A stretch of DNA of 64,000 nt from Limonium bicolor (taxonomy: Eukaryota; Streptophyta; Magnoliopsida; Caryophyllales; Plumbaginaceae): positions 1-64,000 of the forward strand of contig JAIOTZ010000034.1 in assembly GCA_023374045.1 (NCBI GenBank), written 5' to 3'. The translations under genes were made by a program, and so were the position numbers. Of this stretch, positions 2,447 to 28,420 are shown in pieces. Each line of letters opens with the position of its first letter. The first letter of the stretch is position 1. The notes under the pieces are model-generated. The model did no database searches. It was not told the origin of the DNA and saw only the letters and a list, made by a program, of their open reading frames with translations.

Positions 2447-4731
2447 TGAAATACCCCAAACTTAGAGATGGTGTTTAAATGATAAACTAAGATATAAGGA
2501 GGCTAAATAATGCCTTAGAAACATTTCTAATCAAAGAAAATATAAGGAAACACCAAAAGAGCAGTTTAAGCAAAAACGTGCTCTAAGCTTGGAGAGACTT
2601 GGGAGGGTACCCAAATGTTGTTCTAAGGCCTTAGTAATATCCTAAGGGTCATTTTAAATCAATTACCAAAGAAAACCAAGCTTGAAAACAAGTTAAAACA
2701 CAAAATGTGCATTAAGGAGTCGTAAAGCACGTTTTTGAAAAATTGTCTTGTAAATGAGTTTTGAATGGCTAAATGTCCATCATTACTCTTTAATTAACAT
2801 GTGTACTATATAGTATCACATTTGGAAGTCTATCTCAATGGGAAATCAAAAATTTCACAACAATGTGCCTTATTTTGTGAATAGTAAATTAATTAAGCTA
2901 GTTTATAACATAAGTCAATATAAGTGAGATATTTGGTCAACAAAGACTTAAGTACCCCTTGTTACTAATGGGGGCCGGTTTCTTATAAGGTGAGTCACCA
3001 CCTTCATGACTCATTAAGCAAATAAAGTCTTATAAAGCAAAAGTACTATTCACCTTTTACATAAATATCACACTTTAGTGATTCTCTCTCCTCACTTCTT
3101 CATTCTCCTTTGTTTCCCACGATTTCTTGCTCTCTTTCCCTTCTCCATTAACGTGAAGCATACCTCCATGCTAGCTCCATCTAGCTTTGCACACACCTTG
3201 CTCATTTTAGCTCCAAAACCAAAACAAATTACATATTCTACTTAGTTAGCTCAAGCTCTCTCTTTCTATCTTTTCAAAACTTCAAGAGCTTCATTTTGGT
3301 GCCAAGTCAAACCACCATTAGAGGAGGAAATTCAAGTTTGGAGACTCCATTGGCTTCTCCATTCTCTTAAGGTAAAGAAAGTGTAAGAAAATCTAGGTTT
3401 CCATCATTTTCTTCCTTGTCCGAAAATTTACACTCATGGGACTCCAGTTTATGCCTTGTTCTAGCTTGTTTTCTACTCTTCAAAGGATTGAGGAGGTCCT
3501 TCTTGCTTCATATCCAAGCTTGTCTTGAGAAACCAAGGTAAAACAATCACCTTAATACCTTAAAGCACATTTTTAACCTAGGGTTTGTTCCTCAGGGTTA
3601 ATGTATTATCTAGTACTCATTGGAGTCATTGGATATTGGTTAGAACATTGGCAAGGAGATATATATTGGTGACCGAGATTGAGCAAAGAAAAACCTAAGG
3701 AAGAAAGCTTTTAAAGCTTGTAAAAGAACAAGGTAAATTACTTACCTTAAGGTGTTTTTATTGTTTAAGGGAATGGGATTTAGATATGTGACGAGTTTAG
3801 TGTAGAGTTTACATTAGAAAAGGGTTATATAAAACCTAGGAGAAACAATGACTATACTTGTGAACTTGTGACTAAAGAGCAAATGAGAAGAAGAGATAGT
3901 TAAAACAATGTTGAGATGAATTATAAGAAGAATTTTATTTCAATGGGAGCCTTGTTGTGTGTATTCGCAGGTTGAAGGCAAATATATGTGGAAATTCAGT
4001 GGTTAAGATTATTGTCATTTAAGGGCCTAAGTGCCAAGCATTTAAGTTTATGCACTATAAGATGATGTGGTGTAGTTTTGGTGTAAATTGTGTATTAAGG
4101 TGTTGTGATGAGAATTTGAGTGGTATTGGTTGTTTGATGAAGAAAAACCAAGTGTTAGGATGTACTATGTACTAGAGAACCCATGGCAAAATTTAAAGGA
4201 GAACTTAAGGAAGTACTAGGAAGTTCTAGAGGTTGTCTTGATGAAAAAGGGTGAGATTAAGGTGTTCTAATGACTTATAATGACTTAGGTATCACCATGA
4301 AGGATTTAGGAATCAAGAGAATGTATTTGAGTATTTAGGACTTAGGCAAATGTTGGTAAACAGCTAGGAAGGAAATAATGTGTTGATGGATGGAAGTTTA
4401 AGTTTGTGAAGGAACTTTAAGTAAAGGCATAAAAGAATTTTAGATGGTGAAAGATGCTTGGGAGATGATGTTATAGTGGTGAGGAAAACATTTGGCATAG
4501 TGGTTACATTAGGTACGAACCACCACCTAGAAACCTAGTGGAAAACATTACAAGTGTTAGCATTTTTACAAGGAAAATGAATAATGACTAAGGTGAATCT
4601 TGGTGAATGATTTCATGTGTTTAGAGGAGGGCTTAAGGTGTATTTGAGGTGCCCAAATGAGGTTATAACATATTAGGATATATGAGGAGAAGTTTGGAGT
4701 TAAAAGAGAATTTAGAAACAAGGTTCTGGAG

Positions 4732-5131
4732 CCGACCGACCTTAGGACCGGACCTGCAAGGTCGGTCGAGGTCAGTTTACACTACCGGAGAAAGTTTCTG
4801 GAATCGACCGAACATAGGACCGGACTTACAAGTTCGGTCGGGCCTGTATTTTGTGAAGGAATTAAGTCTCTGGAATGGACCGACCTTGGGACCGGACTTA
4901 CAAGGTCGGTCGGGCATGTATTTTGTACGGTAATAAGTCTCTGGAATCGACAGGACATGGGACCGGACTTGGCAAGTTCGGTCGAGCTTAAATTTCCCTC
5001 GGGGAAACTCTCGGGAATGGACCGACCTTGGGGACCGGACTTGCAAGGTCGGTCGGGGTAGAATTTTCAAACGGTGAAGTGTTCTGGAATGGACCGACCT
5101 TAGGTAAGGTCGGTCGGAAGTTCGGTCGAGC
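4732..5131. repeat. Array of six GGTCGGTC quasi-palindromes
   Basis: About six units spaced roughly 70 bp, each of the form GACCGACCTT ... ACCGGACTT ... AAGGTCGGTC, so each can fold on itself. Units alternate between GACCGACCTT/AAGGTCGGTC and GACCGAACAT/AAGTTCGGTC forms, both sides changing together. The 3' LTR copy is at 35102-35500, and S4 has a five-unit version at 58256-58590. The role is unknown. Confidence 0.85.
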
Positions 5132-5789
5132 CTAAAAAAAATAAAAAAAAAAGAAATTTTGAATTCTAAGAATGGTAATAGGTAATAAGGTATACCTTTG
5201 GTAGGGTGGTAATGATTAGGACCCTAAGAACTTATGGAATTAAGTTAAGTTAAGTATAAGTTTTAATGTTTAAAGTTAAGTTTGTAAGCTAAGTGGCAAA
5301 GACTTAAGAGGGTATTAAATGGGAATCTTTAGGGACTAAGTGAGTTAAGTAAGGTGCAAATAACTAATGACCTAAAAATGGATGAATGATTTAGGTTTGT
5401 GAATTGGGACTCCGAAGAAGGATAATCAAACAACGATCGACGGTGAACGGTACAATCCTTCTTGTGACCTGCTTGCTAACGAGGTGTCCCTCGGCTTGTG
5501 TGCTATCTGTTTAATTGATATGACTAAAACAAGATAAAGCATGCAACCGGTTATATTTATTCTCGTTGTGTTTGTGTTATCTTTACACTAACCCGCGAGA
5601 CTTGAGATGGTTACTAACCAAGTTTAGTACTTACTGAGTTAAGAATAAGAGTTAAGTTTGGTGGTCGTTGGTTAATGCCCGTTAGGGCTTAGCTAGCACA
5701 TGTTGATTGAGATGTCTACTAACTGGAACTTGAGTGAGGAAACCCGGGACCGATCTCCGGTCATGCATGCTAAGGAAAAAGGGGCAATC

Positions 5790-7831
5790 TGTTATACCCA
5801 AAATTTCAACCCCCCCGGAGTAGTCTCTAAGGCATACGTGTTACAAAGGGCAAAGTGGTCAAAATGCACCAATGCAGGATTTTCCAAGGACATTCTCGGG
5901 ATTTTCTATTTTTCATATGACTTGTTCATTATCTCCAAACACTTCCAAATATCATGGTCATTATGAAAGGTATTTCATGATTCTCTGATAATATATATTC
6001 TGGAAATTTAGCTTTTAATTCATATTATAAGCTAATTTCTTTAATAATTAACACATGAAATAGCCTCAAAATAGAAATTAAAAGGTTTCCAAAATTAAAA
6101 TAAAATTGTCACATGGTTACCATGACTACATACAGTCATAAACCTGAAATTATTTTATTGGGAACCTTATCCCAAAATTTAAAAGAGAAATTCAATCATT
6201 TTGCAATTTTCTCTCTCCTCTGGAAAATACCGAAATAAAAACAAAATGTCACGCAATTTTAACACAAGATAGAGGATGATTTTTAGAGACTAATGCTGTT
6301 GGAATTTCGTTATTTCGACTTTTCAATAATTAGTTATGAATTATGGGAGATTCCATATTGTGCGATTTTTATCTAATAGGTTATCTATCGAAATAACCTG
6401 ATTCCAACACACAAAATTCCTAAAATTCGTTCTTTATCTTTGGTTAAAATTTCAGAATTTTTATCATCCTGCAACATATTCTAAAAATCAGATTCCCTTA
6501 GAGCACAAAATCAGCGTTTTAGATAAAGATCTTGCTCTATCAATTTGACCATGCTCTTCTATAAAAGGACCTCCCAAAAACGAATTAGGGCAGAAGAGAA
6601 CACTTCCAAAGTCAGAAAACACAGCCACAAACTTCTCCCACGTTTTAACACTTCCAAGCCTCAAATCAATACCGAAACACTGCAGAAATCACCCCGAAAT
6701 CACCAAAACTCATCCTTTCTTCTCCTATTGAAACTCCAAGCACCAAAAACACACAAAACCACCACAAAAACAGAAGAGAAACGTCCTTAACAGCATAAAG
6801 AAGAAGGAGTCAGAAGCACAATTCAAAGTCAATCCAAAACCGGCATCAACGAAGCACCAAAGATCCCCGTTGTGAAGAGTCTCACTAAATCTGAAGGTAA
6901 AACAGGTTGAAGTCTTGTTTTCTGACTTTGTTCAACTTTAACTACTCTGTGTTAAAATTTGGAATCGAATTGACTTTTTATCGCTTCTGAATTAGCGTTT
7001 GTTTTCGCTTCTGCCCAATAACTTGTTTGCTAAGTTTCGTGCTTAATTCGAATTCAAATTGAAAACTTTCAATCACTAACGTCTTGTACATCTTTCAGGC
7101 TGCACACCCATAAAATTTGAGCCAAAACACCTTCGGGAACAGCCTCAACGCCGCCGTCCGAGGGGGTCCGCACCCACGGACGTCATGTCCGGGGTCCCGG
7201 ACTCCCAGTCCGTAAGCCCGGACGCCCGGACGGCGGCGGGGGATTTTTAAATTTAAAAAATTTAGGTTTTCTAATAATGTCCGGGCCCACGGACAGCCCG
7301 TCCGTGTCCCGGACTTTACAATTTTTTTTTCTGTTTAATTCGACTTATTTTTATATAGGTTAACTGGGGTCCGTGGTTTCGGACATTAGGTCCGTGGCTA
7401 CGGACGGAAACAAAATTTGACCTAATTCTGCCTCTGAAATCCTAGTTTAGGAATCTTTAATTTTACTTTAATTTTCTGTCAAAAAATGCTAAAAAACACA
7501 AAAACAGAAGCTCGCGCACTTAGGTTAAAACGACTCGTAATAAGCCGTAAATAACCAAGTAGAGGAAAAACGACCTAGGAAGGGTAATGAAAGTAATTGA
7601 ACCCTAAATAAGTCGAATATCAAGCCCCCGAACCCGAACTCTCCTTTCCTAATTTAATCTAGGTCAAAATTAGGTGGCGACTCATAATAGGTTCCAGTGA
7701 GCTAGCTTAGGTTTTAATAATTATTGTTATATGACATAGTTATTAATCTTAGGTTATAAGTGGACCTAAAACCCGTTTAGATCCTAATCAACTTAATCCA
7801 CACAGGATAGGGTTTAAAATCGAGGCTCACA
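5790..7831 (+). mobile_element. S1: solo-LTR-like insert of a different family
   Basis: Present in the 5' LTR of A but absent from the matching place in the 3' LTR (about 36151) and in S4 (about 57583). It begins TGTTATACCC and ends GGCTCACA, so it has TG...CA ends. A TATAAAAGG box lies near 6560, followed by a leader-like stretch. Its terminal segment is unlike the A family. No matching target duplication is visible (left CAATC, right GACGG), and the left junction has lost or gained bases. No gag or pol is present. Small reading frames (5700-5966, 6545-6790) have no recognisable domain. Confidence 0.65.
7151..7407. repeat. GC-rich GTCCG/CGGAC palindrome block in S1
   Basis: A GC-rich island in AT-rich DNA with many alternating GTCCG and CGGAC words, able to form several stems. 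It differs in sequence from the blocks in B, S2 and A but is the same kind of structure, placed downstream of the TATA box of S1. Confidence 0.7.
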
Positions 7832-8667
7832 GACGGTATCTGAATCAGATCCGCCCTCCGCTTAAGGACTTGTCTTCGGACTTGTAGCCTAGGGCCGGTT
7901 GCCGGCTCAGCTACGCTAGACTCCCGTCCAGAGTAGGTGGCATTAAGATGGTGCGGTGGGATCACCTAAATCCCAGGTTCGAATTAAGCTACAACCATTC
8001 CCTTCCAGGAAAGGTTTGTATACTGAGATTAAGCTGAGATTAAGATTAAGGTAATGTAAGGAATTGAGATTAAGGAAATAAGGACTGAGGAGGGGGTTAC
8101 TAACCCACTTGATAAGGGAACGCTTGAGTCGTTCATTGTTTGTGAACTATATGTGTTCATATGTGGTTATTGTTATTGCACTTCATATTATGCTTGTGTA
8201 TGTAATCAATTTCCATGCTATCGACAATTAGTCGTCGTAGCCCCGTTAGCTTGGGGGCCATGAGAGGGTGTACCAGCATTCGTGCTGACCCCCTCGGGGG
8301 CTATTTTTACACTTGCAGGTAAGAGACCCATGAGGACGCACTACGAGAGTAGGAGCAGTTAGACTTAGGGTGGGATGTTTATTTTGAGTTCGGGTTGTGC
8401 CTGTGCACCCGACTGTTTATATTTAAACTGATGTAAGGTTGTGATTATGATTTAGCTACTTGTACTCGGTTGGCTGTGGTATTGTGGTTGGTGATGTTTT
8501 TGGTTGGTTAAGTATTTTGGATAAGTATTGTATATGTTAAGGCCGGTATATTCTAACGATCAGACCGTGGCAAGGTCCAGGTGTTTATGATTTCCGCTGC
8601 GACATATTCGTTTAAGTGTTCAGTTTTGCGATAACCACGATTGGCTTGGATGGGGTGTTACAAAAAG

Positions 8668-8695: not shown

Positions 8696-9537
8696 CAAGA
8701 AATACCGGACATGAGTAACCACCGAGTTAGGATATAAGTTAAGGAATAAGTGATGGTTAAGGTGTGAGAAGTTATAGTGAGTAGAGTCAGATGACCACTA
8801 GTAAGTGTGGATCGTCTTTACCGTCTACGGACGTTATAAATTCACTAACCGAAACAGTGGTGAATACAAATCTAATGTGAGTTATGCTTGTTCAGATGGC
8901 AGGACGTCCTAGGGGAAACCGGGGTCGCGGCCAGGGTGATGATGCTTCAGGAATACCTGGAGGGTAGACGATCGCAGAGATCGTAGCTGCTGCATTAGGG
9001 CATATGGGCTATCAGCCTGGTGTGGGTGCACCACCTCCACCGCCACAACCTAGGGAACCAAACTGGGTGAAGAGTCTTGCAGATCTTCGACCCGCGCACT
9101 TTAAGGGGGAGACCGATCCCGCCAAGCTTGAGGCGTACATCTCCGAGCGGGAGACCGCCTTCGAGACCCTTGATGTCCCTGCTGGGATCAAGGTGAGCCT
9201 AGCTGCTTTCTATCTGAAGGGGGCGCCAGGCGATTGGTGGAAGCTGGTGAGGGCCGAGCATGTGGCCAACCCAGAGTTCGGCTGGGAGCTGTACACCGCC
9301 TTGCTTCGAGCAAAGTACTACCCCGCCCATGTCCAGACAAAGAAGCTCTTACAGTTGGATGCGCTTAGGCAGACGGACAAGATGACAGTGGACGAGTATT
9401 ACTCAGAGTTCACTGCCTTGCTCCGTCTTCTGCCAGGTCTTGGATACTCTGACCAGATCCTGGTGGACCGCTTCTATGGCGGGCTTAGCCATCGACTCCG
9501 CTACGGCATGGGGCCGACGAGTTACACTACCTTGCAT

Positions 9538-9623
9538 GTAATAAGAATGATTGAGATTTGAGTAAGTAATGAGTAAGATTTAGATTATGAGAAATAAGAG
9601 TGACTAATACTATGGAAAAGCAG
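9538..9623 (+). other. putative intron 1 in gag (86 nt)
   Basis: CAT|GTAATA at the donor and AAAAGCAG|G at the acceptor. The interval is AT-rich and has a branch-site-like TGACTAATAC at 9601-9610, 16 nt from the acceptor. Removal is in phase 0 and joins TTLH to ECYHAA without a change of frame. A precise insertion of filler DNA is the alternative. Confidence 0.7.
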
Positions 9624-9876
9624 GAGTGCTATCATGCCGCTGCTAAGGTGGAGATAACCGTCCAGCTGAGGGACGAGGACAATGCTAAGAGGAAGAGTGC
9701 TGGTAAGAGCTTAGAGAGTCAAGGGCAAGGAGGGTACAAGAAACAAAAGTACCAGCCTCAGGCCCAGAAAAATCAGAACCCAAAGGGGAAGGAGGAAAAG
9801 GAGAAGGCTCCGGAAGAGCCATTGAAGTTGACGTATGCTATCGCAGCTACACCCCTGCGCTCTAGGGCGCTAAAGG

Positions 9877-9956
9877 GTAAGGAATTAATATTGAATGAGA
9901 TAAGAAACAAATTATTAACCGTTTGAGATATGAGAATTGACATTATGAATCATCAG
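9877..9956 (+). other. putative intron 2 in gag (80 nt)
   Basis: Donor AGG|GTAAGG, acceptor ATCATCAG|G, AT-rich, with stops in the gag frame. Removal (phase 1) joins the Lys-rich segment to the segment that carries the zinc knuckles in the frame that encodes them. Confidence 0.68.
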
Positions 9957-10296
9957 GATCTGAGACTGAGAAGGGAGCCGGTGGTGGCTACCAACGACGC
10001 TTCATCTGTAGGTGGTGTCACAAGGACCACCCCGGGCTCGACTGTAAAGGGAATAAGGTGGAGTGCAACTTTTGTGGAGTGTATGGACACCGGGCATATG
10101 AGTGTTACCGGAACCCTGCTAGCAGAGCCTATAGGCCCGATACCAGGGGCAAGGGCAAGACCGATCAGGGAGCTGGATCTGACGGTCAGAGGAAGGTGCA
10201 GCAGCCGGCGGACAAGAACCCAAGGGTGACCCAGAAGCCGGGACCCACACTACATGGTGGACCGGGACGATGAGCCTGAACCCTCATCGAGGCCAG

Positions 10297-10430
10297 GTAC
10301 CGCTATAACCGTTTAGTAATAAAAACTACCTGCTTACCGCATTATCATGCATGTGTTGGTGAATAAATGAGTTAAGTAAGAATAAGATGAGATTAGAACT
10401 TAAGTAAGATATAACCTACTACCACTTTAG
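10297..10430 (+). other. putative intron 3 between gag and AlkB (134 nt)
   Basis: Donor CAG|GTACCG, acceptor CACTTTAG|G. Removal (phase 1) joins the frame ...EPSSRP to GRFNICYPIP..., the start of the AlkB exon. The same donor used with the acceptor at 11367 would instead join ...EPSSRP to EAQADASG..., the start of protease, also in frame. This makes 10431-11367 a candidate alternative segment. Confidence 0.65.
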
Positions 10431-11170
10431 GAAGATTCAACATCTGCTACCCAATACCATCTACACCTAACCCGGAGCACACCGACATCGAAACCATAGA
10501 CTTTCCAACCGAACAATGTCAGGTTATCCGCCCAGGTATGATTTTATTAAGGGGATACCTGACACCCGAAGCACAAATAGCCATCATCAGAAGATGCAAT
10601 CAACTAGGAATGGGACCGGGAGGTTTTTACACACCGGAGTACCCAGGGGGAGCAAGGATGAAATTAAAGATGATGAGCTTGGGCAAGGATTGGAATCCGT
10701 ATGCCAAGAATTACCAAACCATGAGGGGGCAAGATGGAGTCTCACCACCGGGAATACCTGAAGAGTTCCATCCAGTGATTACACAAGTCGTGGAAATCGC
10801 TCAGCAGTTGGAAGCTGAACCGATTCCAGACATTCAAGCAGACATATGCATTGTGAACTTCTACGAGAAGGATGGGAGACTGGGACTAAACCAGGATAAG
10901 GACGAGACAACGGAGTCTCTCGAAAGAGGGATACCCGTAGTGTCTTGGTCCATTGGGGATGATGCGGAGTTTTTATACGGCGAGCAGAAGCGTGCGGACC
11001 GTGCAAATAAGTTGGTACTTAAGTCAGGTGATGGGTTAATTATGGGAGGAGAATCGAGAATGTTATACCATGGAATTAAGCAAATCAAGCTGAATACAGC
11101 ACCGTCAGTAGTAATCAATGCGACGCATATGAGACCAGGAAGATTAAACCTAACCTTTAGACAATATTAG
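10431..11170 (+). CDS. ALKBH1-like 2-oxoglutarate/Fe(II) dioxygenase exon inside a retrotransposon
   Basis: An uninterrupted frame of 245 codons from the acceptor at 10431 to TAG at 11168. The first in-frame ATG is at 10538, but family similarity begins upstream (FNICYPIP, CQVIRPGMILLRGYL), so translation as a Gag fusion fits better than a start at 10538. AlkB-family enzymes oxidatively remove methyl groups from nucleic acid bases; plant ALKBH1 is the closest match I recognise. Counting the first Arg as residue 1: PGGFYTPEY near 59-67, DICIVNFYEKDG near 137-148, the iron site at 153-155, PVVSWSIGDDAEFLYG after 165, the second iron-binding His at 213 (LYHGI) and the 2OG-binding RPGRLNLTFRQ at the end. 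The expected HxD is NQD here (AAC at 10889), which should weaken or abolish iron binding. It lies on the same strand as gag and pol and between them. Identification is from recalled family motifs, not a search. Confidence 0.88.
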
Positions 11171-11367
11171 CCATGTAATGTTAGAAGGAGATGAGGAATG
11201 AGATGTAAAATTTAAGCTCATGTTGTAAACAGGATGGTTATGAATAAAATAACAGTGTTGTTCATATGAATTGTTACGACTCTTGTTATACCATCAATAC
11301 TCATGAAGCTTATGAACACAATTAGGTTATGGACTCGGTACGGAAGGTGCATTAAGTATACTTATAG
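11171..11367 (+). other. AlkB 3' segment with poly(A)-like signal and acceptor before protease
   Basis: Follows the AlkB stop. It holds AATAAA at 11243-11248 with T/G-rich sequence after it, which could end a gag-AlkB transcript, and finishes TTATAG at 11367, an acceptor that puts protease in frame with gag. It could be the captured 3' untranslated region of the host gene. No coding region is seen. Confidence 0.5.
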
Positions 11368-11990
11368 AGGCACAGGCCGACGCTAGCGGTACTATCCTCA
11401 CCGGCACCTTTCCGATTAATGGGATTGAGGCATCAGTTCTCTTCGACTCAGGGGCCTCGCATACCTTTGTCTCGGCATCATTCGCGAGCAGGTGGGGCTA
11501 GACAGTGATGAGCTACCCGCACTTCACGGTTACGCTCCCGTCTAGGAGAAGGTTCGTTGCACTCGTTACTACCGAGGAGCCACTTCAGAATTAAGGGAGA
11601 AGACTTTCAGTCAGTTTCATTGAGTTCAGTAAGCTAGGATTGATGTTATCTTCGGGATGAACTGGTTGGAGCGGCACAAGGGACGTATCCTCTGCGCGAG
11701 CATAGATTGCTGCTCAGGAGTCCGTCTGGGGTAACAATATCATACCGCCAGAGGCCCAGAGAGCCTTAGACTAAGATCATCACCGCCATGGCAATGTATA
11801 AAGAATTAAGGAGAAAGGAAGAAGTATACCTCTGCTATGTACAGGACATAGAGAGAGACCCGAGTTCGACCCCGACTTACCGGTAGTGTCGGAGTTCCCC
11901 GACTTATTCCACGGGAACTGCCCGGCATGCCACCCACTCGGGAGGTAGAGTTCACCATCCAGCTGCTACCTGTACCGGACCGATAGCCAA
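11368..11990 (+). pseudogene. pro: retroviral-type aspartic protease and linker, broken
   Basis: After EAQADASGTILTGTFP comes the active-site motif LFDSGASHTFVS (near 11435-11470), typical of Ty3/gypsy protease, which processes Gag-Pol. The frame meets TAG at 11499-11501 and more stops afterwards; an FGMNWL motif near 11660 is the usual downstream protease signature. The linker to RT is degraded by several small indels. No reading frame longer than 60 codons survives on this strand. Confidence 0.8.
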
Positions 11991-13163
11991 AGCACCATAC
12001 CGTATGGCTCCGGCGAGAAATGACTGAGTTAAAAGAACAATTGAAAGATTTGTTGGATAAGGGATTCATTAGACCAAGTGTGTCACCATGGGGAGCGCCA
12101 GTCCTCTTCGTGAAGAAGAAGGATGGTAGTCTCCACCTCTGCGACTACAGAGAGCTGAATGCAGTGATAGTGAAGAATAAGTACCCACTACCCGCATTGA
12201 CGATCTGTTCGATCATTGAAGGGAGCTCTGTGTTTCCAAGATTGATCTCAGATCGGGGTATCATCAGATAGCCATTAAGGAGGGAGACATTGAGAGACGG
12301 CATTCCGGACACGATATGTCCACTATGAGTTCACAGTAATGCCGTTCGGTTTGTCGAACGCACCGGCGAAGTTTATGGATCTGATGAACCGCTTGTTCCG
12401 GGAGCAGCTGGACAAGTCGGTTGTGGTGTTTATAGATGACATTCTGATATACTCGAAGTCTGAGGTTGAACATGAGGAACATCTGAGGAGGGTATTGGAA
12501 GTACTGAGGGAGAACCAGCTATACGCTAAGTTCTCCAAATGTGAGTTTTGGCTTGACCAGGTCTCTTTCCTAGGTCATGTCATCTCAGATGCTGGGATCG
12601 CAGTGGATCCAGCAAAGATTGATGCCGTACGTACTTGGCCAAGGCCGAAGACTGTTACCGACATCCGGAGCTTTCTCGGTCTGGCAGGTTACTACAGGAG
12701 GTTTGTTAGAGATTTCAGCAAGGTCGCGAAACCGATGACCAGTCTGATGAAGAAGGATGCACCGTTCTTGTGGACAGTAGACTGTGAGAGATCATTTCAG
12801 CGCTTGAAGGACTCTCTGACCACTGCACCGGTTCTGACCATTCCAGACGGTACAGAGGGCTTTGAGGTTTATTGTGATGCATCCGGCAGAGGGCTGGGTT
12901 GCGTGCTCATGCAACATGGCAAGGTGGTGGCATATGCCTCACGCCAGTTGAAGAAACATGAGGAGAACTACCCCACACATGATTTAGAGCTGGGAGCTGT
13001 AGTCTTCACTTTGAAGATATGGCGCCACTTCTTATATGGGGTTCGTGTCACGATCTACACCGATCACAAGAGTTTGAGATACATATTCACTCAGATGGAG
13101 TTAAATCTTCGACAGAGGAGATGGTTAGAGCTTCTGAAAGACTATGACATTGACCTCCAATAA
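11991..13163 (+). pseudogene. pol: reverse transcriptase and RNase H, broken
   Basis: RT begins near the PYRMAP motif (about 11996); [31 protein letters not shown] and CDYRELN follow. Frameshifts at about 12200-12300 break the segment through DLRSGYHQ. The frame from 12339 is open for 274 codons: [12 protein letters not shown], the catalytic FIDDILIYS, the RT thumb, then RNase H ([21 protein letters not shown]). TAA at 13161-13163 with a frameshift separates it from GKANVVADALSRR. RT and RNase H copy the RNA into DNA in the particle. Confidence 0.92.
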
Positions 13164-14199
13164 AAGAGGGAAGGCCAATGTTGTAGCAGATGCCCTGAGC
13201 CGTCGAGCACACTCACTCCATTCGCTAGTTTCTTTCTCCAGCTTGGTTGATGAGGTGCGAGAGGCTCAGAGGACAGATGAGTACATGAGAGAGGTCAGAC
13301 AAAAGCTAACAGATGGTACCTTTGAGAGTCAGAAATACGACTTCAGACTTCATGATGATGATCTGATCAGACTTAAGGGCCGGTTATGCATACCACGGGG
13401 CAACGCGGATCTGAAAGACCGTATACTTAGGGAATCACACTGTTCTTCAGTTTCCATCCATCCGGGAGCCTCTAAAATGTATAAAGACATGAAGAGATAC
13501 TTCTGGTGGTCAGGGATGAAGACAGATGTTACCGAGTTCGTCTTGAGGTGTCTCACATGCCAGAAGGTGAAATTCGAGCACCGAGACCAGGCGGAATGGT
13601 ACAGTCGATGCCTGTTCCAGAGTGGAAGTTCCATGATATCTCCATGGACTTCGTAGTTGGGCTTCCACTGCTAGGGGAGGTCTCAACATGATGGGTGGTG
13701 GTGGATCGCCTTACCAAAGTAGCCCGATTCATACCGATGAAGGATACTTGGAAGGTGACCAGATTAGCTGAGTATTGAGAAAGAAATCATGAGACATCAC
13801 GGCATACCAAAGACCATAGTGTCAGATAGAGATACCAGATTCCTTTCGAGGTACTGGAGAGCTACCAGAGAAGCGTTGGGTACAGAACTCAAGCTGAGTA
13901 CCGCGTTCCATCCTCAGACAGATGGTCAGACTGAGCGTACTATTCAGACACTCGAGGACATGCTGAGAGCATGTGCCTTAGACTTCCAGGGTAGTTGGAT
14001 TGACAGACTACATCTGATCGAGTTTTCATACAACAACAGCTATCACGCTTCGATCAAGATGGCACCTTTTCAAGCGTTGTACGGTAGACCATGTCGTACA
14101 CCGCTCTGCTGGGATGAGTCGAGTGAGACGGTCATTATAGGACCTGAGTACTTAGAATAAGTTAAGGCTGAAGTTCAGCAAATCAGGGAGAACATGAAA
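13144..14199 (+). pseudogene. pol: integrase N-terminal part, broken and cut by element B
   Basis: Starts with the GKANVVADALSRR linker. The zinc-binding region follows ([17 protein letters not shown] and CLTCQK), then the core with [11 protein letters not shown] (first catalytic Asp), SDRDTRF (second Asp) and TERTIQTLEDMLRA (Glu). Frameshifts lie near 13590 and 13680-13790, and a stop at 14158-14160. At 14199 the sequence is split by element B; the next residues of the same protein resume at 27884-27889. Confidence 0.92.
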
Positions 14200-14839
14200 T
14201 GTAACACCCCAACTGCTAATCTCGTCATTACCTCTTAAACTGTCCCAATTGCCAATAATCTCGCAGCGGAACTCTAAATACAACAGAGGGTGATACAACG
14301 CCGTTAGCCACCCATATGGCAAACCAGGCCTATCTCACATACAGTAACGGTCTGATGGACTGGAACAACCGAATACACAATACAAATACAATACTCAACT
14401 CATTTCTTTACTATACTGAGTCTACAATAAATGGATACCGACAACATATTCGGTCTTACACTTCCTTCAATACATAAGTAATTAAAACTACTACCCATGC
14501 AACCCACCGACCCCGTCCTACTCTCGAACGGTAACATCTTCGGTGTACCTGTAAATAAAAACATCGCCCCTAGGGGCTCAGCTTAACGCTGCATATGAAA
14601 TTCGCATACCCCGAGCGCTAACCGGGGTACGCCGACCACTTAGTCGGATATACATGGAGTTCATTTTAGTCAAACAACATGCATCAAAGCAATACAATAA
14701 GTACATGTAATGCTCAAGGAATCTACATCCAATCATGGAACACAATTCCTAACTAACATAACAAGGTTGTTAGTTGTATCTGGTTACTCTTAGGCCTCGA
14801 GGGTTATACCTCACTATGCCTTGTTTACTTATTCAATAC

Positions 14840-15000
14840 ACCCATTCTCTTGGGCTACTCGTACTATACTCACCCAACTCTGGGTTACTTATTCTCATTA
14901 TCTCACCCATCTCTGGGTTATTTATACTCATTATCTCACCCACACTCTTGGGTTATTTATACTCATTATCTCACCCACACTCTTGGGTTATTTATACTCA
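14840..15000. repeat. 35-bp tandem repeat in B LTR
   Basis: About four to five copies of a roughly 35-bp unit containing CTCATTATCTCACCCACAC and TTGGGTTATTTATA, degenerate at the left end. The right LTR has the same array at 24220-24378 with small indels. Confidence 0.8.
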
Positions 15001-16237
15001 AGCTCTTGTAGATTCTCGAGACGCTACAGGTCTCCTACGTCACGCTTGTTACTCTTATATATACTTAGGCCAAAACTCATGGCTCTCTAGCATAGTCTTA
15101 CTTCCCCGGTTTCGACCCTACTCTGGGTCTAGCATGGTGGGAAGGTTCAACTAGCTCACGGAACTCTCTCTTAGTTCCTATCTCTTTTACTTAGGTCCGA
15201 CTACTCTCGGACTACTCTCGTTCCCATATACTCCTCTCTCGGAGTTATAATAATATCATGTATATTAGTCTAGAAGCATCACTCTCGATGTTTCTAATGA
15301 CTTGGGAACATTACTTTAGTTCGGTTAATCTTAGGTTTTAAGAGTTACCATACATTTACTTTACTCATACTTTCGGTTACTTGCATATACCAGGTAAAAT
15401 CCTCATATAGGAGGTCGACCATGTCTCAAGGGAGTTACTAATCCCTCAGGTCTCTTTTACCTTCTTCACTGGTTCACATCTTCGAACTATCTTAAATCCT
15501 CTTGAAGAGGTTCACTTATCTTTCCACTCTCATTTGTTTTGTGGATTGTTTCAATGTGGTTTTCTAACCATTATCGGGTATTTACTCAACCCGTACTTCC
15601 CCTCACATTCTAGGGAGTTCATATGTTTGCATTATCGTTATACTTTAACGGATAGTTTGTGTGTTTGCACGTTTTCGTTATCATAAGCGTCGACCCGATC
15701 TATGGGTCTCTAGCCAAACGTTACTCACTACGAGTCGGTCCATTCACTATGTTAGACCACACCAGCATACAAGTATGTTAGCTCATTCAACATACAACAA
15801 GGCATACATAATCAAACAAGGGATTATTTTCATGCTTAAATCTTGATTAAGCCGGCACACAAACACACAAATCAACATAACTCGGTTAGCACGCGGAGTA
15901 TGAGAAAATCATACCTTTCAGGGGTTTTTACTTTTACTGTGTCATCTCACCTTGCTCGGGTCACACACGATCCTCTGATAACGTTTCAAACATTATTATT
16001 AATACTAAGCTCATACGGAACATAATTAAATGTTATTCCCGTATTACCCCGTTATCCCGTTATCTTGGTTTCACTCTTGTTAATTTGAGTTATCACTTCT
16101 CAACCACTTCTAACACTTTCTTACACTTCCTAGGGCCTTAACATGTCACCAAACAAGGCCTTAACATCTTATAACATCATTAACATTTAAACCCCATCAT
16201 TTCCAACCTTAAAAATGCTCTCTGTTGGTTTCTGGCG

Positions 16238-16494
16238 GTGGTCCGGGACTTGGTCCCCACCCTAAGTCCTGGACCATTACAAGGTATAACTCTCGGCTTT
16301 TATTTTCACCTGGTCCGGGACTTCATGCAGGAGTCAGGTCCCGGACCATAATGCAGGCAAAGTCTCGGCTTAAAAATTGTGGGTGGTCCGGGACTTGGGC
16401 ATGGTCTTAAGTCCCGGACCAAGCAAGCAGAGAACTCTCGGGGGTAAAATCAGGGGTGGTCCGGGACTTGGTCCTGGACCTAAGTCCCGGACCC
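16238..16494. repeat. Array of four GGTCCGGGAC...GTCCCGGACC palindromes in B left LTR
   Basis: Four units, each opening GGTCCGGGACTT and closing AAGTCCCGGACC or near variants, with 15-25 bases between, spaced about 65-85 bp. In RNA each would form a strong hairpin. The matching array is at 25602-25854, and S2 has three related units at 30970-31149. Confidence 0.85.
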
Positions 16495-18516
16495 TGCTAC
16501 AGATTTTGCAGAATTGACATTTTCTAACTCTGTTACAGGTTATCTCTTAGCCCATTGATTAACCTATCTTCACCAACTAAAATCCACATGTTTTAGCATC
16601 TAATTACCCACCTAAACCACCTTAAACCAAGCACCAAGTACACCCACCAATCTAGTTAATTTTACTTAGATTCTTACACACTTACAAGGCTAGTTATTCT
16701 CTGTTATGTTACAAGACTTGTAACAGATTTGGTTTCTTCTTTAAACCATTCAAACCTCACTTACTGATGCCATCCAAGCACTCACATGGCATTATTTTTA
16801 CTCCTAACACACCTCCTTCAAAGTTTGGTTTCCAAACCATTAACCACTCACTTAAACCTCTTAAAACACCTAGTTTCTTCCTTTGAATAGAACACTCAAG
16901 TCCATACATCCCTAGGAAATTTTGACAGCATGCCTACTTCTTAAGCATATTCACCACACTTAAATCAGCTCATAAACACTTCTTCATCCTGTTTAATGAA
17001 ACACAACAACTACAATACACCAAATTTCCCTCTTGTTTACACATATACACTAACTTGGCTTCTAGGTTTATTTTTCTCACACTCAAGCACATTAATACAT
17101 TCTGCTTCAAATAACAATATTGCAGTACCAAGGCTACGCAAGCTCAAAGTTATTTATTCAACACCCACATCAATTCCACAAGGAAAATAAAACCAATTCA
17201 AGGTAAGCTCTTTACCTTGTTTTACTTTCAGTTTTCACTCCTCTTCTTCCTCTTTCTCTTGCTCCCTCTTTCTCCTCTTGTTTTCCACACCACACAAGGG
17301 CTATGGTTTGCCAACTACAACCACCGCCCATCACACACATACAACAATCAATTCACTTTTCCTCCACAAAACCTAATATATATTTTAAGAGCTAGTTTTC
17401 AAAGTTTAATATAGATTTTACCTTAGAGAACCCAAATGGATGACTTGGCAATCAATTGGAGAAGTTTTCCAACACCCACAAAAACCCACGGTCTCGACTG
17501 AAATGAGGGGAAATTCCAATGTGAGGGAAAAATCCCACAAATGGCAAGAATGAGCTTGAAATGGCCTAAACTTATGCTTATTATTACCTTAAAGCATCAA
17601 GGAGAAGAAGAAGGGTTGAAATCTACTCTTCAAGCTTCAAAAGCTCCAACGTCAATGGAAATGAAGATGGAGGAATCGGGTTTTAATTGGGTGGAAACCG
17701 AAGCTCTCACCGAGAGGAGTTCAACGGTACAAATTTCGTGTGATTTGGTGGAGGAATGAGCAAGATAGAGGTGGGACATGGAGGGAGGTGTGCTGTTCAG
17801 TCTCGCGAGTTACAGAGGAAGAAGAAGAAGTTTGCAAATTCTGGAGCAAACCGTGAATGAAGAAAAAGAAGGTGAGAAGGTAAGTAACTTACTTTTTACT
17901 TTTACTTTATACTATTGCTTTATTTACTTATTTGTCTTGTTATTACTTAATAGCTAGCAAGCTATTAATGGGTGTACACTTATTAATTAAAACCGGCCCA
18001 CATTAATTAATAGCCCGGGTCGTTTTTCGTCTTTTCGAATTAAACGCGTTTCGTCTCCCGGTTTCGTCACTATTCACTTACCGGGTCCGTTTTCCGGAAT
18101 TTTCTCGTTTAATTAATTTTAATGGTTATTAAGCTTCCATTAATACTTAATTATAGTTATTTAATCAACTAATTTTTAGGTCCGTTTGACCACTTAAAGT
18201 CACGTTTTCGGGCTTTCTCGAAAAACGTGCTTTTATGCTTATTTAGCGTTTTAATCCATTTTTTGGATCCGTTTTCTTCGGGAATCATTCCCGTATACTA
18301 ATTAGGCCTAACTAAGCCTTAGGAATCCATCTCGGACCCTTACGAGATCATATCTCTTATTTTCTTTTAATGCGCATTTTAGCGTTTTTCGCTTTTCAAG
18401 CGTTTTCTCTTTATTTGGTTTTATTCTTCTTTTACCAATACTCTCTAGGCACAATTAGGCCTTTAATAATTTTATTAGAGTAATTAAATCGCCATTTTTA
18501 GATCCGGGGTATTAAA

Positions 18517-18550
18517 ATCTACCCCCCTTAGGAACTTTGTCCTCAAAGTT
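18517..18550 (-). other. Element B polypurine tract with upstream stem-loop
   Basis: Inverted: ATCTACCCCCCTTAGG is the complement of the polypurine tract, followed by AACTTTG (18533-18539), TCCT, CAAAGTT (18544-18550), a perfect 7-bp stem. This is the same module as in A at 28646-28682. Confidence 0.88.
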
Positions 18551-21500
18551 GGTGAATCTAAATGGTTACTCTCATGGGCGTACTATGCCAAGGTTATAAT
18601 ACATGTATAACCTTACAGACTCCACAAGTCCGTCTTATTTCACACTACACATACCACACATATATCACAGCATGTATAGCAATCAAAAATACTTTTTGTA
18701 CTCTCTCCATGGAATCGGTCCGAAGACAAGAAGGCACTACAGTCCTCGAATCCATGTTGAGTAATATACTACTGATCCCTCAGGTACCGGTCACGTTGAA
18801 CACTTACTCTTTCTGGTTCACGGCCGTTTCATGACAAATGGGCACTTACTCTCTCTGGCCCACGGTCCCTTCGGTTCTGATCAAAACGTTACACATATAC
18901 ATATCCTCAGGCACTCTGGTTGACTCACTCAACACAGGAACATCTCAGGGTACTCTCCCCGTCCCGCTGCCTTTGGAAAAATCACACACTGACACCGCCC
19001 CAACCGGTCACTTAGGACCGCCGCACGTACGGTGCAATGGTTTCAAAACTAATACACGCCCACCGTTCTACCGGTCATCAAGACTTAAGGCCACAGCCAT
19101 CGGCGGGTGATAGTTTCAAAACCAGTTTTCGTTTTTCCATCTTCATACTTGAAGAAAATTCATTTGTAAATTCCGTTTGGAAATTCTTTTTAAAACATCA
19201 CACACTACAAATCCGGTTTATGGTAGCTGTATCTTCTCTTGACGTGATTACTTGTGACCACTTATAGGGAGCTTCAAGAATCATCCAACCCTGATGTGAT
19301 CAGCATCAGTGTTGAACTATCCTTCCACCCCAATTTGTGTTCGGTTTCCCTTGATCGCTAGCAGATCAAGTTCCACCTCCCACGTCAGTTTCAAACAATC
19401 AGATAGTCAAACATTTTCATTTTCTATCTTTTATTCTTTCTAGTCACATTCATAAAACAATTCGTTTTAATTTACCTCAAATTTCCTAAAACTTAGGTCA
19501 TCCGTCATTATCATTGCTTCACTTGCTTTGCCTAGGCATCCCATACTTATGTCCTCATTAGTCAAATTATTACTCAATTAAAACACACAACATGCAACTC
19601 CAAAGGATGGAACTCACTCCATCAATCATTCTCAAATAAAATTACCTAGGGAACTCACTCCCTACAAGGTTCCACATCGGTTTCATACCAATTCGTACTC
19701 ATTATAACTCATGTCTAATCTCACTAGACATATACTATAGGGATTCTCATTCCCTAGGAGTCTCTCTACTCCTCTTTTCATAAATTTACATACTCGTTAC
19801 TTGCATCACTCATGCACAATAATCATTATTACACAATGAATGGGTACATATGTTTATGTAACATAAGTTCCAATCATCAAAACAATTTCTTTTTGTGCTA
19901 TGCACATAGTAGTTTACGCACCAATACGTAAACATACTCTAAGCGGTTTTTCTCGCCCTACCCCCTTAAAAGGGGTTACGCCCGCGTAACCAACCATATG
20001 TTATCACTGAACATTGGTTCACTAATTCGAGTATTATGAAGTGTTTTAACTTCAATGTGGTTAATTAACTCATAACCGGGTTCGGTTCTAGCCTCTAAGG
20101 CTTCAAGGGGTTTATGATATAGGTATACTTAACCCTGAATCACGGTCCACAAGCTTCTGCTGCGTGACCTGATAACTAGAGCTTAATTCGCTCTTTGGTA
20201 TTCTCAATGTATTAATCCACTCCCTTTTTTCCCTTTGTGTCTTGGGAATAAAGGTTCTCAATCGTCGCTAGGTGTCTCTTACCGTATGCGAATTCGATGA
20301 GTTATAGATTTTCTCTCCAGCTCTCTGGAAATCCATTTTTGTATAACTCTGTATACTCTCGTGGTTATTCACTACTCTTTCCGACTTATTGTCGGTTGAG
20401 GTCAAGCTACTACTCAGTATGTAGTGCTTCCTCGTTTAATTTTTATGTTTGTTTACTTGTCACTGTACAAGAATTCTTCATCTATACCACTATGCGTTAC
20501 TATGTATCAGTCCTGGGACCTGTGGGTTACTGCCCACGTTCTTTGTGCATCTTTGGCCAAAGGCCGCACGGTTATTTCTCTAGATTCCCACTCAATAGGC
20601 TTCGTTGACATTTCTTAATTCCTGGCTCTCCCACTTGATCATTACCGCACAAGTGCAATACCAAAACACTCAGTCATACAGAGTGCAGAAGCGTAAACCC
20701 TTGACAGTAAATCTCTCATGAGATAGGAATGATCATGTCTTCTTTACCACATTTCCTTATCAACTTCATATCACTAACCGAATATACTCTTACAATGGTC
20801 GCTTACTGCGTACCTTGTTCTTTCTCATTTTCATGGCATCCGCTACTACTTTAGCTTCCGCCCAGGTGTTCTCGCCATTTACACTATGGCTTGCCATTCA
20901 CTTGGCTCAACAATATACGCTATTCTTTAAATCTCTCTGCGCGCTTGCGCACTGCTTACTCTGCAGTTCATACTGTACACATACAGTGTTCACTACTCAT
21001 CCGATTACTCTATCGGTTTCCTTTTTACTGCTATCAAGGTTCCTCTTTACACACTACTATAGTTCATATGCTCCTTGGCAATATACACATGCTCAAGTTT
21101 TACTACACCGCTCTAGCGGTTTCACATTTCATGCCAACGTGGTAGCCTTTCTCTGGAGGATTCACGCAATTGCCGCTCCCTAGGCCCCACAGTAACAAGT
21201 GGTATCCCCACTCTAAAGTAGCGGTTTATTCTCCACTGTTTCTTCTATGCGTTTATGCTTATGTTCGCACTGTTTAAATCTATAGTTTGTAGTTAGTTTT
21301 ATCGGCTTACAAGCCACCTTGCCTCGAGCCATGCTCTGCGCGACTGTTTATACAAGTTTCTGCTTCTCCGTACACCATTAAATGGTTTGGAGGTATTACT
21401 GGGTTTTTGATATGGTAGTTTCATCACGCTTCCGAACATGGAAGACCCTTAAAGTATTTTGATACTAATTCATGCCCTCTGGCAAGTTAGGGTGTTCCCT

Positions 21501-23552
21501 TTTTACGTGGGATCCCTTCGGGTTCTACCCGAGTGTTTGATTTAACACTTGTATTCTCAACACGATATCTCGTTCAACTACTGTTGACTTCGGTACCCTT
21601 CACGGATTGCTCCGGGGTATTTTTGAGTCGTGCCATTACATCTGGCTTGAACTCATGGGTATATTCAGATTCTTACTCCGCCTTGCGGTTATGTATATTT
21701 TGAAATATCCCGTTTAAGGTTGTAATGTCTCCCATTATTGGGTAGATCCTTGGTACTTTTCCTTTACCTTCTTGGTCAGGTTGTCATTCTCTTCAGTGAA
21801 GTATACTGTGGGAACTCTATCCCGTTATCGAACATTAATATGTTCTTTTTAGGCTTTCGCCATATTGCTTACACTGGTATTCATTCCAGTCATTATGTAT
21901 TTCCTCCTTGATTCCTGAGACATATCCCATGTCTATACTTAATACTCTGTGCTTCTCACACTTATCCACGCTATGTCCTTAGGTCCGTCACCTTACTGGT
22001 TTCTAGACTCCCTTATCTTGGTAAGCTTCCTTGTGTTCTTCGATCATTCGAGGTGTCCAACTGTCTTGGTTTGAATTGGCTCTTTCGTCCGTAGTATGGA
22101 GTGGGCTACTTCCCGTGTTCCGTACTCTACTTGTATACATACATGGAGTATCTTATTGATACGTTGCCACTTACCCGACTAACTCATAATTGGTCTGTCA
22201 GGCCCGCAAGCTCCTTCGGAGTGCGGTCGTTCCATGTCTCGTTTAGTACACCGTAGTGTCGGTCACACGCCTAAGTGAAGTATTTGTTGCCAACTCCTCT
22301 TATATCGTCCTATGATAACTTACCGTGATTCTCTGGTTTGGTTTTCAAAAATTTGGGAGTTTTTGGAAAATTCTCTGTTTGAAAGAAAATTGGGGTTTTG
22401 AAGGTAAATTCTTCATGGCATTTCAACGCCGGTTACTTCTTACCAGGTCCAGCTTCTCGCTGACTGGTATGTTCTTTATACAATGATCAGGCTGTTATGT
22501 CTTTTCAAGGTTCGTTTCACAATTCTTAAGGTTGGTCTCACCATATTGGCTTCTCTCGCCATCTTGGTACCTGCTAAGTACTGGTAGCTTGTCAAAGCCC
22601 CTCTTAGTGGTTCTGTTTTTACTGCACTTGCCGTGGCGAGTGCGCGATACAGGCGGTATTTTGGGTTAACTCATACCGGTCATGGTATTGTTCACATTGT
22701 GTTTGGTAGCCTCGTCGGCTCTTGCTTTGATCCTATGGTCGGATAACTGCTCGTCGGGCTGCTACTTGTTCATCTTGCCATGACTGTCATTCATTTAGGT
22801 GCTTCTCCATCCTCGGAGTTCCATAATTACTTAGTTCAGTGTTCTCCCTCGTTGCTCGTTCCCACGTCGTTACCGTGGTTACCGAGGTTTACATCACTAG
22901 GCACTACCGTTGTAGTCCTATTCGGGTGTACCCCATAATTATGCTTGTAGCCGCCTAAGCTATGCCCGCTAGGTATTGCAACCTCTTCGGGTGTGGCAGG
23001 GTGGGTGTATCTACTCCTGACTAGATTCTTAGTCGGTTGATAGATCGTTGGTGGTATTATTTAGTTATGGCGGTCCGTAGACATGTGTCTCGGTTTGGTT
23101 GTTTCTCATTAATCCGCCTTGTTGCGCGGTTAGTGCTTCCTTCTTGCTACTGCTTGGCTAGCTAGGTTCTCGCGACTGCTAAGCATGTCGCCCCAAGCTG
23201 CCACAGATTCCGGTCTTCTTGGACTAGGATTTCTCGATCTTCCGCTTTTTAGTGCGGTTATTGTCGTTCCAACGGGATCCATCTCCGGGGTTTCCGGTTC
23301 TCAGGATCTACCGCGTGACAGATTCTGGTTCATATCGAAATATTAAATAAGTGCCAGATTGGGTTTCCCCGTCTCTCTGACGTTCTTCCCCAAGCTTTTA
23401 ATACGGGGGTTGTGGAGGGCGGGTGTGGTATTGTAGGTATCCAGATCATACTGGAAGTTCCTATCTAGCGCATCTCTCACGCTACCACTCAACCCTTAGC
23501 CCTAAGTCTCTATTTCCTAACTCGGTATTTCCTAAGCTCGGTATTTCCAGTC
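18551..23552 (-). pseudogene. Element B internal region, coding capacity lost
   Basis: About 5 kb that should hold gag-pol of a minus-strand element. No minus-strand frame of 60 codons or more lies wholly inside it. The only clear coding trace is AKVVADAM on the minus strand near 20855-20832, which resembles the KANVVADALSR linker between RNase H and integrase; 19956-19991 matches the end of pol. Plus-strand frames of up to 122 codons (20297-20608, 20815-21183) run against the element and show no domain. I read this as decayed pol of a related element, not a new gene. Confidence 0.6.
19956..19991 (-). other. second polypurine/stem-loop module of element B
   Basis: In element orientation: GGTTACG, CGGG, CGTAACC (stem 19974-19991, 7 bp), then CCTTTTAAGGGGGTAGGG. 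It matches the pol-end module of A (28386-28420) and of E3 (62022-62058), and sits about 1.4 kb from the LTR in B against about 0.26 kb in A. Confidence 0.78.
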
Positions 23553-23580
23553 ATCAGAGCGATACTTCGCTCTGATACCA
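23553..23580 (-). other. Element B primer-binding site within a perfect stem
   Basis: The complement of TGGTATCAGAGC lies at 23569-23580, next to the right LTR after a short T run. It overlaps the 9-bp inverted repeat ATCAGAGCG (23553-23561) and CGCTCTGAT (23568-23576). The loop differs from that of A while the stem is identical. Confidence 0.92.
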
Positions 23581-24219
23581 TTTTTTGTAACACCCCCAAA
23601 CTGCTAATCTCGTCATTACCTCTTAAACTGTCCCAATTACCAATAATCTCGGAGCGGAACTCTAAATACAACAGGGGTGATACAACGCCGTTAGCCACCC
23701 ATAGGCTAACCAGGCCCTATCTCACATACAGTAATTGTCTCATGGACTGGAACAACCGAATACAAATACAAATACAATACTCAACTCATTTCTTTACTAT
23801 ACCGAGTCTACAATAAATGGATGCCGGACAATATTCGGTCTACACTTCCTTCAATACATCTAGTAATTAAAACTACTACCCATGCAACCCACGACCCGTC
23901 CTACTCTCGAACGGTAACATCTTCGGTGTACCTGTAAAGTAAAAACATCGCCCTAGGGGCTCAGCTTAACGCTGCATATGAATTCGCATACCCCGAGCGC
24001 TAACCGGGGTACGCGACCACTTAGTCGGATACATGGAGTTCATTTTAGTCAAACAACATGCATCAAAGCAATACAATAAGTACATGTAATGCTCAAGGAA
24101 TCTACATCCAATCATGGAACACAATTCCTAACTACATAACAAGGTTGTTAGTTGTATCTGGACTCTTAGGCCTCGAGGGTTATACTCACTATGACTTGTT
24201 TATTATTCAATACACACCC

Positions 24220-24378
24220 ATTCTCTTGGGCTACTCGTACTATACTCACCCACACTCTCGGGTTACTTATTCTCATTATCTCACCCATACTCTTGGGTAT
24301 TATACTCATTATCTCACCCACACTCTTGGGTTATTTATACTCATTATCTCACCCACACTCTTGGGTTATTTATACTCA
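24220..24378. repeat. 35-bp tandem repeat, right B LTR copy
   Basis: Counterpart of the array at 14840-15000, with the same unit and number of copies apart from small indels. Confidence 0.8.
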
Positions 24379-25601
24379 AGCTCTTGTAGATCGAGACGCT
24401 ACAGGTCTCCTACGTCATGCTTGTTACTCTTTACATACTTAGGCCAAAACTCATGGCTCTCTAGCATAGTCTTACTTCCCCGGTTTCGACCCTACTCTGG
24501 GTCTAGCATGGTGGGAAGGTTCAACTAGCTCACGGAACTCTCTCTTAGTTCCTATCATCTTTTACTTAGGTCCGACTACTCTCGGACTACTCTCGTTCCC
24601 ATATACTCCTCTCTCGGAGTTATATAATATCATGTATATAGTCTAGAAGCATCACTCTCGATGTTTCTACTGACTTGGGAACATTACTTTAGTTCGGTTA
24701 ATCTTAGGTTTTAAGAGTTACCCTACATTTACTTTACTCATACTTTCGGTTACTTGCATATACCAGGTAAAATCCTCATATAGGAGGTCGACCATGTCTC
24801 AAGGGAGTTACTAATCCCTCAGGTCTCTTTTACCTTCTTCACTGGTTCACATCTTCGAACTATCTTAAATCCTCTTGAAAGAGGTTAATCTTTCCACTCT
24901 CATTTGTTTCGTGGATTTTTCAATGTGGTTTTCTAACCATTATCGGGTATTTACTCAACCCGTACTTCTCCTCACATTCTAGGGAGTTCATATGTTTGCA
25001 TTATCGTTATACTTTAACGGATAGTTTGTGTGTTGCACGTTTTCGTTATCATAAGCGTCGACCCGATCTATGGGTCTCTAGCCAAACGTTACTCACTACG
25101 AGTCGGTCCATTCACTATGTTAGACCACACCGGCATACAAGTATGTTAGCTCATTCAACATACAAAAGGCATACAAATCAAACAAGGGATTATTTTCATG
25201 CTTAAATCTTGATTAAGCCGCACACAACACACAAATCAACGTAACTCGGTTAGCACGCGGGTATGAGAAAATCATACCTTTCACCGGGGTTTTTACTTTT
25301 ACTGTGTCATCTCACCTTGCTGGGTCACACACGATCCTCTGATAACGTTTCAAACATTATTATTAATACTAAGCTCATACGAACATAATTAAATGTTATT
25401 CCCGTATTACCCTGTTATCCCGTTATCTTGGTTTCACTCTTGTTAATTTGAGTTCTCACTTCTAACCACTTCTAACACTTTCTTACACTTCCTAGGGCCT
25501 TAACATGTCACCAAACAAGGCCTTAACATCTTATAACATAATTAACATTTAAACCCCCATCATTTCCAACCTTAAAAATGCTCTCTGTTGGTTTCTGGGG
25601 G

Positions 25602-28368: not shown

Positions 28369-28385
28369 CTAGATCGTCTGTATAG

Positions 28386-28420
28386 GGTACGGGGCGTACC
28401 TCCTTTTTAAGGGGGGTAGA
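28386..28420 (+). other. second polypurine/stem-loop module at the end of A pol
   Basis: GGTAC, GGGGC, GTACC (28386-28400), then a T run and AAGGGGGGTAGA (28409-28420). It repeats the order of the LTR-adjacent module about 260 bases downstream. It could serve as an extra plus-strand primer, like the central tract of some retroelements. Confidence 0.78.

Follow-up and report, generated by a model that had tools for sequence, protein, structure and literature searches.

Why would a plant retrotransposon carry a nucleic-acid dioxygenase between its gag and protease genes? The question is raised by positions 10297-11367 of a 64,000-nucleotide stretch of Limonium bicolor DNA (assembly GCA_023374045.1, contig JAIOTZ010000034.1, positions 1 to 64,000 of the forward strand; this whole stretch is called the window below), where an AlkB-type reading frame lies inside a Ty3/gypsy element bounded by long terminal repeats (LTRs). 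The reading that we favor, at a probability of roughly 60%, is that AlkB is an alternative exon lying between the gag and protease parts of a Ty3/gypsy element with a chromodomain, whose Gag-fused enzyme would be packaged and strip methyl groups. The segment 10297-11367 is bounded exactly by splice-donor-like and splice-acceptor-like sites, and the acceptors for AlkB (10431) and for protease (11368) have equal phase to the single gag donor (10297).

The AlkB domain and its predicted splice-site borders

A preliminary description of this locus had reported an open AlkB frame with family motifs, on the same strand as gag and pol and between them. The motifs are indeed found in a stop-to-stop frame of 251 codons (10415-11167, stop 11168-11170, plus strand), which matches PF13532 with E=3.3e-41 and 142.1 bits against a curated cut-off of 31.2; gag lies upstream, and protease followed by reverse transcriptase, RNase H and integrase lies downstream. 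Among solved structures, the relatives found by sequence at E up to 0.001 were rice 5xeg, AlkB and ALKBH1 only, and a fold search gave OsALKBH1 as the best match, the AlkB core alone aligning with whole AlkB structures. An ALKBH5 structure was absent among the 50 fold matches listed, which excludes nothing, and the viral AlkB rows among these matches were 11-20% identical. Judged by sequence, the domain is of the ALKBH1/AlkB type rather than ALKBH5-like. A search of viral contigs gave 244 pattern matches and confirmed no relative, and a plasmid search listed 50 records, every one below 60% identity.

The iron ligands H159, D161 and H219 are intact in 38/38 copies of the element chosen by their flank (see below), and H159 and D161 are kept in 40/40 copies chosen as best matches. 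The RxxxxxR end that binds 2-oxoglutarate reads PGRLNLTFRQY in all 40 best-match copies, while in the flank-chosen sample its arginines are present in 36/38 (R243) and 37/38 (R249). In the window copy, Asn at 159 replaces the first iron-ligand His of H-x-D, and the family's residue pattern fails here alone. The coding part of the element in the window, from gag to protease, is arranged as follows, a slash in a motif marking the predicted border.

8896-9537, plus strand: gag exon 1, encoding the capsid (Retrotrans_gag); the window copy has a stop at 8965-8967
9538-9623, plus strand: predicted intron 1 of family 1, from its splice-site borders; absent in the one family-2 copy read
9624-9876, plus strand: gag exon 2, from frame and phase
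9877-9956, plus strand: predicted intron 2; the single family-2 copy read has a similar donor context
9957-10296, plus strand: gag exon 3, which includes the zinc knuckle; frameshifted in the window copy
10297-10430, plus strand: predicted short form of intron 3, from the common donor CAG/GTACC to the AlkB acceptor TTTAG/G
10431-11170, plus strand: putative AlkB exon (ALKBH1/AlkB-type dioxygenase), ending in TAG; open, with Asn for the first iron-ligand His
10297-11367, plus strand: predicted long form of intron 3, from the same donor to the protease acceptor, AlkB being skipped
11368-11800, plus strand: protease (RVP_2), frameshifted in the window copy

Between the coding stretches lie AT-rich pieces, with a GC content of 0.27-0.34 compared with 0.46-0.59. 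Their predicted borders, CAG/GTAAT...CAG/GA, GG/GTAAG...CAG/GA and CAG/GTACC...TTTAG/GAAG or ...TACAG/AGG, recur in almost every one of 41 copies, and the phase fits, junction by junction in order, in 41/41, 39/40, 40/40, 34/35, 40/41, 41/41 and 40/40 scorable copies. Where intron 3 is retained, a stop follows 6 codons past the donor in 39/41 copies. In a second family, described below, both acceptors are likewise in phase with the gag donor (3/3 copies). The donor GT and the AlkB acceptor AG are intact in 38/38 flank-chosen copies, against a mean dinucleotide share of 0.926 in intron 3, where 39/128 places also reach a conservation of 1.0, and intact GT/AG alone is weak evidence. One might read these intron-like stretches as the product of decay or indels, with gag, AlkB and pol expressed via frameshifting or reinitiation, and many copies do have frameshifted gag and pol; however, the donors, acceptors and phases are consistent from copy to copy and between the families, and the base composition changes at these very borders, which makes such an explanation very unlikely.

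The predicted gag introns also vary. The one family-2 gag read, in copy L104, is continuous across the intron-1 position (TTIQ-ECYDAA) and has a separate predicted intron at about 1137-1212. Such a turnover of predicted introns (intron 1 in family 1, a different one in L104) is unexpected in an element whose replication passes through RNA.

Copies, selection and a second family

The preliminary description had left room for an isolated fragment evolving neutrally. Many further family copies with AlkB at the gag-protease position were found, so the window copy is not a single case. A protein search of the 2.92-Gb genome assembly, whose contigs C1-C8 are 136-540 Mb long, gave 150 scored AlkB places (window included), 142 of which lack an internal stop; this list is ranked by similarity and hence biased. 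The same bias affects a first set of 40 copies, taken as the best AlkB matches, which we replaced for the selection estimates by a set chosen with a noncoding stretch downstream of AlkB as the query (best 40 of 1234 candidates scored; at least 3 of 39 places are also in the protein-search list). Of the 39 places other than the window, 38 hold a full-length or nearly full-length AlkB and one, L086, holds its last 36 bases only; L086 and the window row were excluded from the selection and splice-site counts. Among the 38 AlkBs, 11 are wholly open, 21 are frameshifted and 8 contain a stop.

Substitutions in this set were sorted by the number of copies sharing them. The omega-like ratio is 0.85, near neutral, for changes found in a single copy, and falls to 0.44 for changes shared by two copies and 0.37 for those shared by three or more, a range that indicates constraint. 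Such a pattern is as expected if AlkB were needed during element replication and then decayed after each insertion. It also bears on the possibility that AlkB is a mere passenger, a captured piece of a host gene copied along unused. That 27/38 flank-chosen copies are broken, and that the window copy is without one iron ligand, would fit a passenger; the constraint on shared changes next to near-neutral private ones, the iron ligands intact in 38/38 and the retention of AlkB in two families (see below) speak against it, and this already disfavored explanation is very unlikely. The idea that the window copy is a young, neutrally evolving piece of the local gene of the host was rejected on the evidence of the sampled copies, the pattern of selection and the trees.

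The second family emerged when the Asparagus host protein P0126 was used as the query, which gave 109 scored places at 55-60% identity; three of these were read, and all are element copies. They show a zinc-knuckle gag end, the AlkB frame and protease in the order of family 1, with a stop in the gag of one of them (L103). The AlkBs of the two families share 143-151 of 244 residues, with a nonsynonymous divergence (dN) of about 0.3 and a synonymous divergence too high for the NG86 method to return a value.

In a tree, both families join proteins P0001-P0004 (source tags ena for three, lgn for one) with support of 100/100, apart from 28 others, mostly plant-named; against 116 other proteins, family 1 likewise groups with P0001-P0004, set apart. 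Once bacterial rows are added, the host proteins form one group (98/99), the bacterial branches are very long, P0004 splits from the other element-like rows, which are weakly united (94/57), and the root is uncertain; we are thus unsure of the unity of an element-like AlkB group that includes P0004. From these sequences we infer one old capture of AlkB, followed by descent inside elements. The host gene capture proposed in the preliminary description stands in part: a host-type ALKBH1/AlkB domain is resident in the element, whereas a recent capture is not supported, since the element AlkBs lie apart from the sampled plant ALKBH1-like proteins (less clearly once bacterial rows are added) and two divergent families have AlkB at the same position. 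As a separate observation, the short AlkB proteins P0062, P0073 and P0056 form their own clade, which lies beside grass ALKBH1 in trees without bacteria and branches basally to the host proteins once bacterial rows are included.

Several observations weigh against an alternative exon giving a Gag-fused enzyme. Only 11/38 flank-chosen AlkB copies are wholly open, and this sample takes the closest first of the 1234 candidates. The protease acceptor AG is lost in 1/41 copies. AlkB codons 7-41 are without constraint (17 nonsynonymous and 5 synonymous shared changes), although they contain neither a stop nor an ATG in 31/31 gap-free rows, and given these codons the enzyme may be a free protein starting at Met42. 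In family 2, an in-frame ATG precedes the AlkB core, which would allow a free AlkB to start without splicing; the odds of the fusion are slightly lower for this reason. The acceptors may also pair differently, or be active only in rare transcripts.

The main rival is an accessory AlkB that is free of Gag: its translation would begin at an ATG close to the core, Met42 in family 1, and it would erase marks on element or host RNA, as suggested for the second open reading frame (ORF2) of the orchid elements discussed below. Besides the unconstrained codons and the family-2 ATG, it is favored by the Met42 ATG, kept in 37/38 flank-chosen copies, by the core that aligns alone with whole AlkB structures, and by the orchid enzyme, which is encoded in a separate ORF and has N6-methyladenosine (m6A) activity (PMC9289625). 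The conservation of Met42 says little, however, because its equivalent is nearly invariant in plant host proteins too, and the AlkB acceptor is intact in 38/38 copies and shares the phase of the gag donor in both families. A free enzyme is a serious but still unlikely alternative to the alternative exon.

Lineage, proposed mechanism and known systems

The AlkB element is called a chromovirus because a chromodomain is found in copy L050 (Pfam Chromo, E 1.7e-5, exactly at the cut-off) and a chromodomain-like integrase tail is unbroken in 8/10 copies read. Its pol gave 120 listed matches, Ty3/gypsy-type pol proteins with 50-74% identity, the named ones mostly from plants. The features of Tekay type are the primer binding site (PBS) TGGTATCAGAGC at 8668, which we take to be of the initiator tRNA-Met type, a 5-bp target-site duplication AAAGA and a 4.2-kb LTR. 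According to a paper on beet, chromoviruses use a Met PBS and Tekay LTRs are mostly 2.6-3.0 kb. Judged by PBS and LTR length, we call the element a Tekay-like chromovirus.

On the alternative-exon reading, a single RNA would give Gag alone when intron 3 is kept, Gag-AlkB when the gag donor is joined to the proximal acceptor, and Gag-Pol when it is joined to the distal one. Unspliced RNA would serve as the genome for reverse transcription, and the introns would thereby be retained. The Gag-AlkB fusion would enter particles, where AlkB could remove base methylation from RNA or from nascent first-strand DNA. Its task would be the removal of lesions of the 1-methyladenine (m1A) and 3-methylcytosine (m3C) type, which block reverse transcription, rather than the erasure of m6A marks; we favor lesion repair given the AlkB/ALKBH1-like character of the domain and the fact that m1A and m3C are substrates for repair by E. 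coli AlkB (PMC544882). In a fuller scenario, a clade of plant chromoviruses made a captured AlkB/ALKBH1 into a mutually exclusive exon, splicing would fix the ratio of Gag to Pol and at the same time bring a repair enzyme into the particle, and the arrangement was kept across at least two anciently split families; the odds of this scenario appear to us evenly balanced.

The preliminary description knew of no LTR element with an AlkB domain, which has to be corrected: Ogre/Tat elements of Phalaenopsis (Gypsy_Pa_2799 and kin), reported in 2022, encode an ALKBH5-like domain with m6A demethylase activity in vitro, and none was detected there in the other plant genomes of a screen of 121 genomes (PMC9289625). 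Both are large multicopy plant Ty3/gypsy elements with a resident AlkB-superfamily domain and conserved cofactor residues (PMC9289625), and by analogy a demethylase function of the Limonium AlkB is plausible. Gypsy_Pa_2799, however, belongs to Ogre/Tat, with a tRNA-Arg PBS and 6.4-kb LTRs, in contrast to the chromodomain, the TGGTATCAGAGC PBS and the 4.2-kb LTRs found here; its gag-pol is one ORF and its ALKBH5-like domain ends a separate 565-amino-acid ORF2, while the Limonium ALKBH1/AlkB-type domain lies between gag and protease in an intron-like segment, with further predicted introns in gag; and activity was shown in vitro for the orchid enzyme (PMC9289625), while the Limonium element is known from its sequence.

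Among systems with regulated splicing, Ogre elements have an intron that is partially spliced (Neumann et al. 2003 and Steinbauerova et al. 2008, as cited in PMC6317226, PMC12786077 and PMC3735527). The likeness, predicted for Limonium, is that the polyprotein region contains an intron-like stretch and that its excision would connect reading frames; unlike what these sources describe for Ogre, the Limonium stretch contains a putative alternative coding exon that is in phase, and more introns are predicted in gag. BARE1 is likewise a plant LTR element in which alternative splicing yields a Gag-only RNA separate from the genomic RNA, but it belongs to the Copia superfamily, with a 104-nucleotide intron and no added enzyme (PMC3735527). 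The AlkB of plant RNA viruses also resides in a replicating plant parasite and has been suggested to protect RNA against methylation damage, but is part of the replicase polyprotein (PMC544882). Among the papers surveyed in the literature searches, none showed AlkB in LTR elements besides the orchid case, an ALKBH1-type AlkB in a chromovirus or AlkB as an alternative exon. Relative to the literature searched, the combination of an ALKBH1-type AlkB, a chromovirus and an alternative exon is new. Betaretroviruses carry a nucleic-acid-hygiene enzyme between gag and pro, the nucleocapsid-dUTPase, which is particle-borne as a Gag-linked protein; it differs in using ribosomal frameshift instead of splicing and in being an unrelated enzyme.

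If true, our reading would describe a splicing-based counterpart of this retroviral protein, and exon choice would offer a concrete route to Gag, Gag-enzyme and Gag-Pol from one transcript. It would also be a second, independent entry of the AlkB superfamily into plant LTR retrotransposons, with a different AlkB type and lineage, suggesting that such elements repeatedly face methyl marks or alkyl lesions on their nucleic acids as an obstacle and evolve ways of clearing it. Given how many natural copies there are, the exon-choice and the enzyme claims can both be put to the test.

The element and its nested insertions in the window

The window holds a nest of elements, in which further LTR elements are inserted into the outer Ty3/gypsy element. 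That this outer element is bounded by LTRs and an exact AAAGA duplication, as described earlier, is borne out by the remaining features.

2442-2446, no strand: left target-site duplication AAAGA, an exact match to the right copy
2447-8662, plus strand: 5' LTR (TG...CA) of about 4.2 kb, not counting an insert at 5785-7831; its pieces match the 3' LTR at 95.6-99.1% identity
8668-8679, plus strand: PBS TGGTATCAGAGC, from the sequence
11987-13160, plus strand: reverse transcriptase and RNase H, frameshift-broken in the window copy
13138-14199, plus strand: first part of integrase (H2C2 and core), split by the nested element
14200-27882, minus strand: nested LTR element in integrase, foreign to the AlkB element, from LTR comparison
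27883-28410, plus strand: integrase C-terminus and chromodomain-like tail, with a stop in the window copy; chromodomain matched in copy L050
28683-36983, plus strand: 3' LTR with an insert at 29199-33282, from LTR comparison
36984-36988, no strand: right target-site duplication AAAGA, an exact match to the left copy

Once its three inserts are subtracted, the AlkB element is about 14.7 kb long. Its LTRs are 98.67% identical over three pieces (3677 columns), or about 98.3% on average when a fourth piece (95.6%, 524 columns) is included, and the insertion is therefore fairly young. The window copy, with frameshifts and stops in gag and pol, is a decayed member and probably has no enzyme activity.

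The nested element (13.7 kb, in reverse orientation) has LTRs that are 96.7% alike and is flanked on both sides by ATGAAA; no match to the gag or pol pieces of family 1 was found in its interior. Layered nesting of related elements is seen in the inserts at 29199-33282 and 5785-7831, with a third related LTR copy at 57-61 kb on the minus strand. Internal repeats occur in the outer LTR at 4720-5101, in units of about 72 bp, and in the nested LTR at 14839-15000, in units of about 33 bp.
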